Origin: Erysipelotrichaceae bacterium
GTDB taxonomy: Bacteria > Bacillota_I > Bacilli_A > Erysipelotrichales > Erysipelotrichaceae
Assembly (NCBI GenBank): GCA_017431825.1
Contig: JAFRKI010000002.1
Location: 281,863 to 345,862, forward strand
DNA: 64,000 nucleotides
Direction of reading: 5' to 3'
Position 1 is the stretch's first letter, and the number at the start of each line of letters is the position of its first letter. Under the pieces are notes generated by a model, which worked only from the letters and a program-made list of their open reading frames with translations, was not told where the DNA came from and did not search any database. This document shows positions 14,013-46,741 of the stretch, piece by piece. A program made the position numbers and the translations under genes.

Positions 14013-16796
14013 ATGAAAGATCAATTTCTCAGTAACAATTCAGATGTTCTCTTCTTAAGCAAACTTAAGGATTGTTTTAAGACTTGCAAATCTTTTTCTC
14101 TGTCTGTGAGTTTTATCAAAAAAGCCGGACTGGTGCTGATCGAAAGAGAAATGGAGGAAGCACTAGAAAGAGGTGCCACAGGAAGAATCATTACTTCCAC
14201 CTATCAGAACTTTACCGATATAGCTTCGCTTAGAACCTTCCTTTTCTGGCAAGAAAAGTATCCGAATTTCTTCTGCCATCTTGAAAAGAATTGTTTTGGA
14301 GATGATGGTTTTCATACGAAGGGTTATCTCTTTGAATACGAGAATTCAATAGAAATAATAATCGGATCAAGTAACATAACCCGATTTGCTTTACTGAAAA
14401 ATTATGAATGGAATATTTCTTTGGTTTCGAAAGAAAATATCGAATCTTATAACGATGCTTTAAAGGAATTCGGATTCCTATGGGAAAGAACCTTTATCTT
14501 GACTGATGACATCATCAAAGAGTATACACTTATCCTTGATTACGCTATCGAGAGATGGGATATGGATTACTTCAATCCTCTGACACAGAATGTAATCCCT
14601 AATTCCATGCAGAGAAAGGCTCTGAAAGAACTACGCAGATACCGTAGCATGGGCGTTAAGAGAGCTCTTATAATAAGTGCTACAGGTTCAGGAAAGACAT
14701 ATCTTGCAGCTTTCGACGCAAGGAATTGTGATGCTAAGAGAGTTCTGTTTGTCGTACATAGAGAACCGATTTTAAAGGATGCTAGGAATACTTTTCTGAA
14801 CGTTTTTGGTACCGAAAAGACCTGTGGTCTTTTTACTGGCAATCAGCAAGATCTGGATGCTGATTTTGTTTTTGCTTCCAGTCAGATGCTTGCAAGACAT
14901 CTGGATCAGTTTGACAAAAATGAATTTGACTATATCTGTTATGATGAAGTGCATCATATTGTAGCCGAATGTGGAAGGAAAATCCTGGATTACTTTAGTC
15001 CGGACTTTCTCTTAGGATTAACAGCAACACCAGAAAGAATGGACAATCAGGATATCTTTGAACTGTTTGAACAGAACGTTCCATTTGAACTAAGGCTAAG
15101 AGATGCCATTTTGAATGATCTGGTTGTTCCTTTCCATTACTATGGCATCAGAGATGAACTTATCGATTACGGAATTGATGATAAGAACAAACTTTCAACT
15201 AATATTGCGGAAGCAAAGAACGTTGATTTCATTTCTCAAGAGATAGAGAAATACAGGCCAAATGATGAGAAATTAAAAGCTATCGCCTTCTGTACCAATA
15301 TTGCCCATTGTCGATTAATGGCTAATGAACTAGCCATGAAGGGTTACTCGACCGTTGCCTTAACCGGAAGTGATAATACCGGTGAAAGAATAAAAGCTTT
15401 TAACGATCTTCAGGACAACAACAATGATCTAGAGATTATCTGTGCGGTTGATATTCTTAATGAAGGCGTTGATATCCCTGCCATTAATATGGTTCTTTTT
15501 CTTAGGCCAACCGAAAGTTCAACTATATTCCTGCAACAGCTAGGAAGAGGCTTAAGAAAATATCCGCACAAGCATTATCTGACTGTTTTAGATTTTATAG
15601 GTAATGATTACCGCCGTTCAGTTCAAATCGCATTAGCTTTAGGAACTTTGGGAAAAACAGCGTATACGGAAAAGTCGTATCTTAAGCAATTGATCGAGTC
15701 GGAATATAAAACGCTTGGAATTCCTGAAGTTGAAATTCATATGGATGAGCTTTCTAAGAAAGAGATTCTTAAATACATCGATAAAGAAAACTTCAATAAG
15801 CGTTCTTTCCTGCAAAAAGACTATGAAAACTTTAAAAACTATCTGAATAAAAACAAGATTCCAACGCATATGGATTATCTCGAATCAGAGATTTCACCTA
15901 ACTTGGACAGATTCCTTAAGTCTAAAGTTGCAAACGGAAAGAAGCCGATTTCTTATTACAATTTCTTGAAAGCCATTGGTGAGGAAGATTTACCAATTTT
16001 CACTGAAGAAGAGAACAAACTGATTGATAACATCGAAGAAATGCTTCCAATTGTGAGACCAGATGAATATCTGATCATTGATTATCTTGTAAAGAATCAG
16101 AATCTTATTATTGATGAACTGGAAAATTATAACTCCAGGGTTAGTCATGTTTCATTGAGTAACGCCATTGAATACCTCAACTCAAAAGAAATCCTAAAGG
16201 GGAATGAATTAAATATCAGTAATATCTCAAATATAAAAGGCTATCTCTTGGACCTTCTTGATTATGGTTTGAGTAGATATGAAATGGAGTTTGGTGATTT
16301 TGAAGGCGAATACAAACTATATGCTAACTACACTAAAGAGCAAACAATGACATCGGTAAGCAGACAGTATTCGATGGATATTAAACTTAAAGGTACTTAT
16401 TTTGATACAGACAATGGAAACACATATGTTTACGTGGGCTTGAAAAAAGATAAAGCAAAAGAAATACGTACTAATTACAAAGACAAATTCATCAGTCCTT
16501 ATATTTTTCAATGGGAATCAGAAAATAACACAACCGTCAATAATAACATAGGAAAAAAAATCTTAAACACTAAAAAGGTATATGTTTTTGTCAGAAAAGC
16601 AGACGATGAAGATGGAATAATCCTTCCATTTACTTATTTTGGCACAGGAAAATTCACAAACATGCGTGAGTCAAAAGTTGTTAATCAGAATACTGGCAAA
16701 GAGTTTAGAACGTTATTGTTTGATATCCTCCTGGATAATGTAGTTCCTAAAGAATACCACATTGACTTCGAAGTACCTGATAAATTAGATAATTAA
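14013..16796 (+). CDS. PLD-nuclease/SF2 helicase/DUF3427 protein
   Basis: 927 residues. Domain order: N-terminal phospholipase-D-like nuclease (about 10-170; FHTKGYLFEYEN near 103 supplies HxK, IIGSSNIT supplies the Asn); SF2 helicase with ATGSGKTYLAAF near 222, YDEVHHIV near 311 and GLTATPERMD; C-terminal helicase half with QQLGRGLRKY; then a C-terminal DUF3427-like region (about 765-920, ANYTKEQTMTSVSRQYSM). A single-protein nuclease-helicase that may cleave damaged or foreign DNA. Coding sequence is clearly more AT-rich than the flanking genes, suggesting transfer. No SD; the ATG is 3 bp after the NUDIX stop, so reinitiation is likely. Confidence 0.9.
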   Translation: MKDQFLSNNSDVLFLSKLKDCFKTCKSFSLSVSFIKKAGLVLIEREMEEALERGATGRIITSTYQNFTDIASLRTFLFWQEKYPNFFCHLEKNCFGDDGFHTKGYLFEYENSIEIIIGSSNITRFALLKNYEWNISLVSKENIESYNDALKEFGFLWERTFILTDDIIKEYTLILDYAIERWDMDYFNPLTQNVIPNSMQRKALKELRRYRSMGVKRALIISATGSGKTYLAAFDARNCDAKRVLFVVHREPILKDARNTFLNVFGTEKTCGLFTGNQQDLDADFVFASSQMLARHLDQFDKNEFDYICYDEVHHIVAECGRKILDYFSPDFLLGLTATPERMDNQDIFELFEQNVPFELRLRDAILNDLVVPFHYYGIRDELIDYGIDDKNKLSTNIAEAKNVDFISQEIEKYRPNDEKLKAIAFCTNIAHCRLMANELAMKGYSTVALTGSDNTGERIKAFNDLQDNNNDLEIICAVDILNEGVDIPAINMVLFLRPTESSTIFLQQLGRGLRKYPHKHYLTVLDFIGNDYRRSVQIALALGTLGKTAYTEKSYLKQLIESEYKTLGIPEVEIHMDELSKKEILKYIDKENFNKRSFLQKDYENFKNYLNKNKIPTHMDYLESEISPNLDRFLKSKVANGKKPISYYNFLKAIGEEDLPIFTEEENKLIDNIEEMLPIVRPDEYLIIDYLVKNQNLIIDELENYNSRVSHVSLSNAIEYLNSKEILKGNELNISNISNIKGYLLDLLDYGLSRYEMEFGDFEGEYKLYANYTKEQTMTSVSRQYSMDIKLKGTYFDTDNGNTYVYVGLKKDKAKEIRTNYKDKFISPYIFQWESENNTTVNNNIGKKILNTKKVYVFVRKADDEDGIILPFTYFGTGKFTNMRESKVVNQNTGKEFRTLLFDILLDNVVPKEYHIDFEVPDKLDN

Positions 16797-43366: not shown

Positions 43367-43385
43367 GTTTCACCTCTTTCATAAA

Positions 43386-43425
43386 AAAGATGCCTTATAC
43401 ATCGCAAGACGTAGAACGCATCTTT
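43386..43425 (-). terminator. Terminator after the HAD fusion gene
   Basis: Outer stem AAAGATGC (43386-43393) with GCATCTTT (43418-43425) and partial inner pairing; followed on the minus strand by TTTTTTATG. Confidence 0.7.
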
Positions 43426-43434
43426 GAAATCTTA

Positions 43435-45312
43435 TTATAAGTATTCCGTCACTTCAGCCAGCGATTCCATGATGATGTCCGGACGGTAATCGTAGTTCTC
43501 CAGATCTTCCAGCTGGGTCTCACCGGTCAGGACCATGATAGACAGCGTGTCCCTGCCGTCAGCTACCTTGATATCCGTATAGATACGGTCGCCGATGACA
43601 CAGATCTCGTCTTCCTTATAGCCTGTTTCCTTGATGATGTAGTCAAGAGTATGATGGGACGGCTTGCCGAAGAATTCCGGGAAACGTCCGGTCGATCTTT
43701 CGACCAGCTTGGCAATCGAACCGCAGTCCGGAATATACTCGCCGCCGGCTACCGGACAGTTGTAGTCCATGTTTACACCGTAGTACTTGGCACCGTGTCT
43801 CAGGAAGGTACAGGCCTTTTCCAGCTTCTCGTAATTGAGCGAGGTATCAAAGCCCAGTATGACCGTATCCGGATGTTCATCGTCAAGGGCCAGTCCGGCA
43901 TCCCTGAAGGCCTTTACGAGACTGTCGGTACCGACGATATAGTAAGTGTCATTCGGACCCTTTTCCTTGAGATATTCGATGATGACCTGCGTTGACAGCA
44001 TCATGTGTTTCTCGTCGGTCGGAATGCCAAGTCTTTCGAGCTTGCTGAGGTAGTCGCCCTGATTCTTGGAAGAGTTGTTGGTAAAGTAGTAGGCTTCCCT
44101 GCCGCTTTCCTTAACCTTGTCCAGGAAGTCCTTGGTAAACGGGAAAAGATCGTTACTGAGGTAGATGGTTCCGTCCATGTCCAGGACGAACATCTTTACC
44201 TTATCGATCATTTCCTGATTTCTTTTTTTCTTATATTCCTTATATGTTTTCTGATCGTCGAAGTAAGAAGCAGCTTCTTCGGTGCAGCCCTTTTCACCTG
44301 TCAGGGTATTGCCGTCAAAGACCGCTTCCAGTCCTTCTTTCAAAGAAGCTTTGGAAAGACTCAGCTGTTCCGGATTGATGGCAGCGCCAAGATCCAGCAG
44401 TTCCTTTTCGCACTCTTCAGTATCCGGAAAATCTTTTGCGTCTTCATTGCCTTTGGCTAGCTTTTCATACATCTTAAGGCAGGAGATGAGGCTCAGGGCC
44501 ATGCAGCGTTCCTTTAAAAGAGGTTTCTTTCCTTTGCGGTATGTTTCGGCTTCAAGATACTGTGCCAGATCGCTGGCGCTGGAAAGGTCAAGCTTTCCTT
44601 CCTTATCGGTCAGGATGGCCATGTCTCTTGTTATGATGGCGTTCATTATCTTTCTGATGTTCTTATCGGACCGGGCTTCCTTTACAGCCGTAAGGATCCT
44701 GTCATAAGTACCGTCAGTGACCAGTCCCTTCGTTTTCCATTCAAAGAGGTTGAGCAGGATGCCGTAAAGCTGGGCTCTGGCAACAGGACAGTTGCGGTTG
44801 AGGTATGACGTATCCGCAAACAGGGCCACAGGTCCTGCCGTTTCATGGATCTCTTCCTCACCGTCAGATAAAAGGATCGCCCTGTCGCTTATGAAACCTT
44901 CAATACACGGTGAAGTCGGATAAGACGTATAAGGAATGCCTAAGCGGCTGCTTACATACTTGCACAGGTCATTGATCTGTCTGCCTCCGGCCGCAATGAT
45001 GAGACCGGTATCTTCAGGAGTACTGACGATCAGTTCGCCTACCTTCTCCTTGTCCGGAGTAAAACCTTCCTCAAGGATATGACAGTCTGTTTCGATGTTT
45101 TTCTTCTGGAACAGTTCATAAAGCCTGTCTGCTGCTTCCCTGCGGTCCTGACTTCCTATGAGCATTACTCTGCCGTAATCTGATCCTTTGATAAAGGCAG
45201 GGATCTTTTCGGTCGCCTCATCGCTTATCAGGATCTTTTCAGGAAGTACAGACCCTTTTTCTTTAAGCTCTCTTAATGCCCTGTTTTTAAGATGATCATT
45301 CAGTTTAATCAT
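43435..45312 (-). CDS. Fusion: degenerate glycerol-1-phosphate dehydrogenase-like domain + NagD-type HAD phosphatase
   Basis: 625 residues in one intact frame. Residues 1 to about 360 follow the sn-glycerol-1-phosphate dehydrogenase (AraM) fold: LIIAAGGRQINDLCKYVSSR, then SYPTSPCIEGFISDRAILL. The metal-ligand segments are changed: CPVARAQLYGILLNLFEWK replaces the Asp-bearing G-D-L-x-A-K, SSASDLAQYLEAET replaces the GSEH...H region, and LLKERCMAL replaces LHGEKV. From about 370 a complete HAD-IIA phosphatase follows: FVLDMDGTIYLSND, YYFTNNSSKNQGDYL, FFGKPSHHTLDYII, CVIGDRIYTDI. The phosphatase should be active, the dehydrogenase half probably not. Follows pfkA-pyk, so a triose- or glycerol-phosphate substrate is likely. 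SD AAGGAG present. Confidence 0.88.
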   Translation of the reverse strand: MIKLNDHLKNRALRELKEKGSVLPEKILISDEATEKIPAFIKGSDYGRVMLIGSQDRREAADRLYELFQKKNIETDCHILEEGFTPDKEKVGELIVSTPEDTGLIIAAGGRQINDLCKYVSSRLGIPYTSYPTSPCIEGFISDRAILLSDGEEEIHETAGPVALFADTSYLNRNCPVARAQLYGILLNLFEWKTKGLVTDGTYDRILTAVKEARSDKNIRKIMNAIITRDMAILTDKEGKLDLSSASDLAQYLEAETYRKGKKPLLKERCMALSLISCLKMYEKLAKGNEDAKDFPDTEECEKELLDLGAAINPEQLSLSKASLKEGLEAVFDGNTLTGEKGCTEEAASYFDDQKTYKEYKKKRNQEMIDKVKMFVLDMDGTIYLSNDLFPFTKDFLDKVKESGREAYYFTNNSSKNQGDYLSKLERLGIPTDEKHMMLSTQVIIEYLKEKGPNDTYYIVGTDSLVKAFRDAGLALDDEHPDTVILGFDTSLNYEKLEKACTFLRHGAKYYGVNMDYNCPVAGGEYIPDCGSIAKLVERSTGRFPEFFGKPSHHTLDYIIKETGYKEDEICVIGDRIYTDIKVADGRDTLSIMVLTGETQLEDLENYDYRPDIIMESLAEVTEYL

Positions 45313-45322
45313 GGCTTTCTCC

Positions 45323-46741
45323 TTACTTGATGCTTATGATCTTCATCATATTGGCAGAACCTTCACCTGTCGGATAACCGGCGGAAAGGATGATCAGTTC
45401 GCCCGGTTTGAAACCGTACTTCTTACATACGGCACTTGCCAGTTCGTCATCGTTGGTCATGTCGTTCTGGACCTGGGACAGTACCGGTATGACGCCCCAG
45501 TAATCCTGGAGGGCGTGCTGGGTCTGTCTGGTGAAGGTGACCGCATAGATCGGACAAAGCGGTCTGTATTTGGATATCACCCTGGCCGTCGTACCGCCCT
45601 GGGTAAAGACGACGATGGCCGATATAGGCAGTGACAGCGAAGCATCGGAAATGGCGATACCGATGGCATCCTGAATGGAGTTGTTGGTATAGTTCTTCAT
45701 ATGGTCAAGATGCTCGCGGTATGGATAGATCTCTTCAGCCGTATTCGCGATGGCAGCCATGGTCTCTACGGCTTCTACCGGATACTGTCCGGCTGCCGTC
45801 TCTCCTGACAGCATGACCGCGTCGGTGCCGTCAAGGACCGCATTGGCCACGTCGGCCGCTTCGGCTCTGGTACAGCGCGGATTGGTCGTCATCGAGTCCA
45901 GCATCTGCGTGGCCGTTACGACCGGCTTGCCGCATTCGTTGGCTTTTCTGATGATGGTCTTCTGATAGATCGGCACCTTGTCAGTCTTGACTTCGACGCC
46001 CAGGTCGCCTCTGGCCACCATGACACCGTCCGCGAAATCCAGGATCTCGTCGATGTTGTCGACGCCTTCCTGATTCTCGATCTTGGCGATGATGTTGATC
46101 TTCGGCTTGCCCATTTCCCTCAGGATCTTCCTGATCTTCAGGACGTCATCGGCTCTTCTGGTAAAGGAAGCCGCGATGAAGTTGACGTCCATCTCACAGC
46201 CGAACCTGATATCGCTGTCGTCTATTTCGGATATGAAAGGCATGGACAGTTTTACGCCCGGTACGTTGCAGCCCTTGTGGTCGGCAAGTTCGCCGTTCAC
46301 CATGACTTCACACTTCAGTTCCTCACCGGTATTCTCCAGTATCTTAAGCTGCATCTTGCCGTCATTCACCAGGATCAGGTTTCCGGCTTTCACGTCATTG
46401 AAAAGATCGGGGCACTTGATATGAAAACGTTCATGGGTACCCATCATCTTTTCCTTGCAGATGGTGACGATCTCGCCTTTTTCATAAGTTTCCTTGCCGT
46501 TGGCGAAATCGCCGAGTCTGATCTCCGGTCCCTTGGTATCGAGCAGGATGCCGATATTCAGGCCGTTCTCCTTCTCGACCTGTCTTATCAGTTCTATGTT
46601 CTTGCGATGGCTTTCATGATCGCCATGCGAAAAGTTGAGTCTGGCAATGTCCATACCGGCCCTGGCCATCTTAAGGATGGTATCGTAATTGCTGCTGGCC
46701 GGTCCGATCGTGCAGATTATCTTGGTCTGTTTATCTATCAT
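45323..46741 (-). CDS. pyk: Pyruvate kinase
   Basis: 472 residues. Makes pyruvate and ATP from phosphoenolpyruvate. TKIICTIGPASSNYDTI start, IARLNFSHGDHESH, IIAKIENQEGVDNIDEIL (active-site Lys and Glu), MVARGDLGVEV and ATQMLDSMTTNPRCTRAE. Ends at the normal C-terminal domain; the extra PEP-utilising domain of Bacillus Pyk is absent. Starts 2 bp after pfkA, the classic pfkA-pyk pair. Confidence 0.98.
   Translation of the reverse strand: MIDKQTKIICTIGPASSNYDTILKMARAGMDIARLNFSHGDHESHRKNIELIRQVEKENGLNIGILLDTKGPEIRLGDFANGKETYEKGEIVTICKEKMMGTHERFHIKCPDLFNDVKAGNLILVNDGKMQLKILENTGEELKCEVMVNGELADHKGCNVPGVKLSMPFISEIDDSDIRFGCEMDVNFIAASFTRRADDVLKIRKILREMGKPKINIIAKIENQEGVDNIDEILDFADGVMVARGDLGVEVKTDKVPIYQKTIIRKANECGKPVVTATQMLDSMTTNPRCTRAEAADVANAVLDGTDAVMLSGETAAGQYPVEAVETMAAIANTAEEIYPYREHLDHMKNYTNNSIQDAIGIAISDASLSLPISAIVVFTQGGTTARVISKYRPLCPIYAVTFTRQTQHALQDYWGVIPVLSQVQNDMTNDDELASAVCKKYGFKPGELIILSAGYPTGEGSANMMKIISIK

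Follow-up and report, generated by a model that had tools for sequence, protein, structure and literature searches.

A phosphatase fused to a degenerate AraM-like dehydrogenase half in an Erysipelotrichaceae bacterium

The window, that is, the whole stretch of 64,000 nucleotides analysed here, contains a complete open reading frame of 625 codons which starts with ATG, comes third in a row with pfkA and pyk, and codes for a protein that joins a half similar to the glycerol-1-phosphate (G1P) dehydrogenase AraM to a HAD-IIA phosphatase (Table 1). As stated in the preliminary description of this DNA, the gene begins 10 nt past the stop codon of pyk. The hairpin and U-run that follow it form a probable terminator of the pfkA-pyk-fusion series, and its position after these two genes perhaps gives it constant expression. 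The arabinose genes araB and araD, which adjoin some of its relatives only, are not found beside it. We rejected an assembly artefact as the origin of the fusion, since the frame is open and has its own ribosome-binding site and the same architecture is shared by the genomes of isolates (Clostridium brassicae, Clostridium sp. CMCC3677, and Anaerostipes sp. 992a).

Table 1. Features of the fused gene and its borders in the window.
Feature	Position	Strand	Evidence or remark
Gene of the 625-aa fusion, pseudo-AraM (G1P dehydrogenase-like) joined to HAD-IIA phosphatase	43435..45312	(-)	ORF and domain matches
Dehydrogenase-like half (residues about 1-350), with a Rossmann part at 30-172 and a degenerate helical part at 173-350	44263..45312	(-)	Pfam Fe-ADH_2 and AF2 match to AraM
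Codon 111, cofactor-motif Gly (GxG), now Arg	44980..44982	(-)	Alignment
Codon 181, metal-ligand Asp position, now Gln	44770..44772	(-)	Alignment
Codon 247, first metal-ligand His position, now Ser	44572..44574	(-)	Alignment
Codon 267, second metal-ligand His position, now Lys	44512..44514	(-)	Alignment
HAD-IIA phosphatase half with complete catalytic motifs (residues about 369-625)	43438..44208	(-)	Pfam, NCBIfam, motifs, 1vjr match
Shine-Dalgarno AAGGAG	45319..45324	(-)	Overlaps pyk stop codon, 6 nt upstream of fusion ATG; read from sequence
Hairpin then U-run directly 3' of fusion stop	43384..43425	(-)	Fold z -3.4; 1/200 shuffles equally good

Two other regions of the window are worth describing. 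The segment 57683-60996 (minus strand) has a GC3 of about 0.26-0.34, compared with 0.5-0.7 in most of its neighbours, and encodes a 524-aa HNH nuclease with a PD-T4-1/mREase_IV match as well as a 348-aa protein and an adjoining 224-aa protein with weak PADLOC matches only (JukB, BrxB); it looks like a small acquired defence island. At 14013-16796 (plus strand, GC3 0.34), PADLOC strongly matched a 927-aa protein combining a PLD-like nuclease, a helicase, and DUF3427 to a methyl-directed restriction enzyme of type IV.

The phosphatase half is complete, as had been proposed. Pfam detected Hydrolase_6 on residues 375-474 and Hydrolase_like on residues 548-620, and the protein reached 111.6 bits with the NCBIfam HAD-IIA model TIGR01460 (cut-off 100.15). 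HAD motifs I-IV are all present (D378/D380 in VLDMDGT, T411 in FTNNSS, K550 in FFGKPS, and D575/D580 in GDRIYTD), and these residues are invariant across a 12-row alignment. The closest solved structure is the 4-nitrophenylphosphatase TM1742 (1vjr; 39% identity, Z 35.8, 1.5 Å over 258 residues), which is a stand-alone enzyme, unlike the window fusion. The Rv1692 glycerol phosphate phosphatase (4i9f/4i9g) has a HAD-IIA core annotated for glycerol phosphate, 25% identical when this core of its 361-aa chain is compared. AraL of Bacillus subtilis is likewise a HAD-IIA (NagD-like) protein encoded with a G1P dehydrogenase (PMC3207120), a likeness by family and gene setting; however, AraL is a separate protein of the arabinose operon, whereas the window protein is fused and located after pyk. 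In its own genome, the window protein is the sole clear HAD-IIA member (Pfam Hydrolase_6). Judging from its motifs, this half presumably functions as a phosphatase acting on G1P or on other small sugar or polyol phosphates.

As for the dehydrogenase-like half, Pfam assigned residues 30-172 to the iron-containing alcohol dehydrogenase domain Fe-ADH_2 (6e-17), and the protein scored below the threshold of the NCBIfam G1P dehydrogenase model. Alignment with 47 ligand-intact dehydrogenase homologues showed that the three segments originally picked out for the metal ligands are the correct ones and that the metal-binding Asp and two His have indeed been lost (D to Q181, H to S247, and H to K267). 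Residues 157-368 of the protein contain no histidine at all and, therefore, a two-His metal site is impossible there; an Asp and two His at the metal site are already contradicted by the sequence alone. The cofactor motif, by contrast with its initial description as kept, is only partly so: the near-invariant GSGTINDL of the homologues reads GGRQINDL, preserving INDL and one Gly but with GGRQ instead of GSGT/GAGT and Arg111 instead of the second Gly of G-x-G. Altogether, 10 of the 43 near-invariant dehydrogenase positions survive and 33 are lost, with 7/16 retained in the Rossmann part versus 3/27 in the C-terminal part (Fisher p 0.024). We infer from these replacements that this half would be devoid of dehydrogenase catalysis.

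An AlphaFold (AF2) model of the protein, built from a 42-sequence alignment, had a pLDDT of 89, a confidence that borrows from the intact homologues included in that alignment; the dehydrogenase half folded alone by AF2 and without alignment had a pLDDT of 36. The model matched the crystal structure of AraM, the Ni2+-dependent G1P dehydrogenase of B. subtilis (9h4x; Z 35.3, rmsd 3.0 over 338 residues, 18% identity). According to this model, the AraM fold probably persists in the dead half, which differs from AraM in being fused to a phosphatase and in lacking the three metal ligands and the GxG motif.

Scanning contigs with the single protein gave no match, and an alignment-led scan recovered the fusion loci. 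At least 22 other loci of the named genome collection encode a G1P dehydrogenase and a HAD-IIA phosphatase in one ORF and in the same order; their hosts are Clostridium, Anaerostipes, Lachnospiraceae, Oscillospiraceae, and single metagenome-assembled genomes (MAGs) labelled Robertmurraya and Atribacteria. Single-protein similarity searches in 1,284 genomes of the phylum detected no other whole-length fusion, an absence due to sensitivity and sampling since the named collection does yield fusions. We found no paper on a G1P dehydrogenase-HAD-IIA fusion in the literature searched. The question of whether all such fusions lack the metal ligands has a negative answer: the D/H/H triad is intact in 20 of the 21 other fusions with readable metal sites, as it is in all 27 stand-alone dehydrogenases of the alignment. 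Because nearly all readable fusions keep their ligands, the dead half is derived and rare. The exception, L097 from the Lachnospiraceae RUG12263, has V, Y, and P at these positions.

Other loci encode the two proteins as neighbouring genes (Amedibacillus, Faecalicoccus, Catenisphaera, Absicoccus, and Anaerostipes). In the Erysipelotrichaceae Amedibacillus, Faecalicoccus, and Catenisphaera, a phosphatase ~57% identical is encoded immediately downstream of a canonical dehydrogenase or separated from it by one gene. Both the intact fusions and these gene pairs support the proposed pairing of a glycerol-phosphate dehydrogenase with a phosphatase. In Clostridium (L093) and Robertmurraya (L130), the fusion has the L-ribulokinase gene araB as a neighbour; araD is located between dehydrogenase and phosphatase in G006 and, judged by N-terminal sequence, also in Catenisphaera. 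These loci mirror the AraL/AraM pair of the B. subtilis arabinose operon araABDLMNPQ, in which AraL is a HAD-IIA sugar phosphatase, inactive on glycerol 3-phosphate and without G1P among its listed substrates (PMC3207120), and AraM is a G1P dehydrogenase (PMC13400652). In the MAG labelled Robertmurraya (Bacillaceae; L130, 1089-8119), the fusion precedes araB, and upstream of it there are regulator-like genes and a G3P-dehydrogenase-like gene. The window genome also possesses two ligand-complete canonical G1P dehydrogenase-like genes elsewhere (L043 and L044). In L044 (4382-6574), the dehydrogenase gene precedes one for a Cof-type HAD-IIB phosphatase; the two form a further dehydrogenase-HAD pair of neighbours, here with a different HAD subclass. 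A supply of G1P for PcrB-type ether lipids was rejected, as the window genome has no match to PcrB.

The preliminary description had also linked the fusion to a glycolytic operon, but this link is not general. We detected pyk in 29 of the 36 genomes of the window's genus and, among the 25 best pyk matches in other genus members, none of the 24 readable loci carries the fusion gene downstream; it is absent after pyk also in the nearest genus member with pfkA-pyk. Because of this absence, the glycolytic setting appears local to the window species and not a conserved link.

In a phylogenetic tree of 121 phosphatase halves, the window protein and that of a genus-mate (L045) joined the Lachnospiraceae fusions (support 94/94 for a 12-row group and 100/96 for a 17-row group). 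The HAD half of the window protein descends from a common ancestor with other fusions, and its placement among those of Lachnospiraceae suggests that it was acquired from a donor of this kind. In the dehydrogenase tree, agreement with this placement was weak (84/0). Within intact fusions, the two halves show similar identities (dehydrogenase/phosphatase 48/48, 64/66, and 79/87%), whereas the window protein and L099 are 26% identical in the dehydrogenase half and 65% in the phosphatase half; for L097, these values are 46% and 76%. The end branch of the window protein measures 4.2 in the dehydrogenase tree versus 0.25 in the phosphatase tree, which amounts to an about 17-fold higher rate of evolution in the dehydrogenase half than in its partner.

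Several relatives show comparable losses. L097 (5713-8106) encodes a second pseudo-dehydrogenase fusion, which lost all three ligands independently of the window protein and apparently more recently; despite the change from D/H/H to V/Y/P, it keeps 35 of the 43 near-invariant dehydrogenase positions. Six of the 62 species of its genus match the fusion with long open frames; three have the phosphatase only and L097 has the pseudo form. The genus-mate L045 conserves an N-terminal remnant of ~107 aa matching the Rossmann part (1-2 of 1000-2000 shuffles were as good), and three members of the same clade (L107, L131, and L146) have the phosphatase only. The opposite-strand gene downstream of these three starts like the gene after the fused L101. 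No dehydrogenase remnant was found upstream of the phosphatase in L107 and L131, and the same search in L146 gave one weak dehydrogenase match (E 0.47) overlapping the start of its HAD gene. From the pseudo form, the remnant, and the phosphatase-only members, it follows that the dehydrogenase half has been lost several times.

We compared the replacements in the dehydrogenase half of the window protein with neutral-drift simulations starting from L099. Their mean BLOSUM score was -0.37 versus about -0.89 in the simulations, none of which (0/500) was as conservative. Starting at the 57-65% identity that the phosphatase half would lead one to expect, 0/300 simulations reached the observed BLOSUM value; starting at 50% identity, about 4-12% did so, the overall range for the observed values being about 1-12%. 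A claim that this half is still constrained is not firm, since the test loses force if half of the divergence had accumulated before the loss. The AraM fold was probably selected for part of the time after ligand loss, which falls short of proof of present function.

Our preferred explanation, to which we assign a probability of about 0.7, is that the window protein comes from a bifunctional fusion and is an active HAD-IIA phosphatase whose AraM half is catalytically dead but probably still folded. The ancestor would have been a single bifunctional protein with an sn-glycerol-1-phosphate dehydrogenase of the AraM type in its N-terminal half and an AraL-like HAD-IIA phosphatase in its C-terminal half; to judge from the two families, it may have converted DHAP and NAD(P)H to G1P and then G1P to glycerol and Pi. 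In the window lineage, the dehydrogenase half has lost the three metal ligands and most active-site residues, and hence presumably catalysis, with the HAD half remaining intact and presumably keeping its phosphatase activity. The reading frame of the dead half is maintained because ribosomes must pass through it to translate the phosphatase; this half is, if anything, probably a structural or oligomerisation domain in slow decay.

Several observations could also be accommodated by other explanations. The long end branch of 4.2 substitutions per site, the loss of 33 near-invariant positions, and the repeated disappearance of the dehydrogenase half in relatives would all agree with a pure relic, functionless and drifting neutrally. 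We nevertheless consider a pure relic doubtful: in most settings, neutral simulations give less conservative replacements than those seen here, and neither stop nor frameshift interrupts 350 codons, even if the downstream phosphatase by itself enforces an open frame. A regulatory role had been put forward in the preliminary description, with the pseudo-dehydrogenase as a sensor of triose phosphate, glycerol phosphate, or NAD. A sensor of NAD(P)H, DHAP, or G1P controlling the phosphatase could explain why the Rossmann segment is the best kept, why only a Rossmann-like remnant is retained in the genus-mate L045, and why the substitutions look conservative. However, the GxG motif is broken by Arg111, most substrate and metal residues are gone, relatives within the same clade have the phosphatase alone, and we found neither a regulatory precedent in the literature searched nor positive evidence for such a sensor, which makes it improbable. 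We give slightly less credit to the proposal that the HAD-IIA phosphatase is regulated by a pseudoenzyme, the dead dehydrogenase being retained as a regulatory domain that binds nucleotides or triose phosphates, and that such a phosphatase evolved from a bifunctional DHAP-to-glycerol enzyme on at least two occasions.

Enzymes of the G1P dehydrogenase family are oligomeric, and the dead half, with its AraM-like fold kept in the model, might pair with one of the two canonical ligand-complete dehydrogenases of the same genome, thereby tethering the phosphatase to an active dehydrogenase. However, these paralogues fall in other subgroups of the dehydrogenase tree and are located elsewhere in the genome, and we regard such a pairing as improbable too. 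Coming back to the bifunctional origin, the dead AraM half most likely represents one half of a former two-function enzyme, now in decay or put to another use, and not a special glycolytic sensor.

Taken alone, one pseudoenzyme half in a single species is of modest importance. The host is a gut-type bacterium with a fused sugar/glycerol-phosphate phosphatase, and the dehydrogenase half has decayed repeatedly with retention of the phosphatase, which suggests that selection acts on the latter. In the intact fusions, a single polypeptide carries both the G1P dehydrogenase AraM and a phosphatase; together with the araB and araD neighbours, this arrangement provides a concrete and testable hypothesis for the AraL/AraM pair, namely that it may convert DHAP to G1P and then to glycerol, or serve for G1P disposal.
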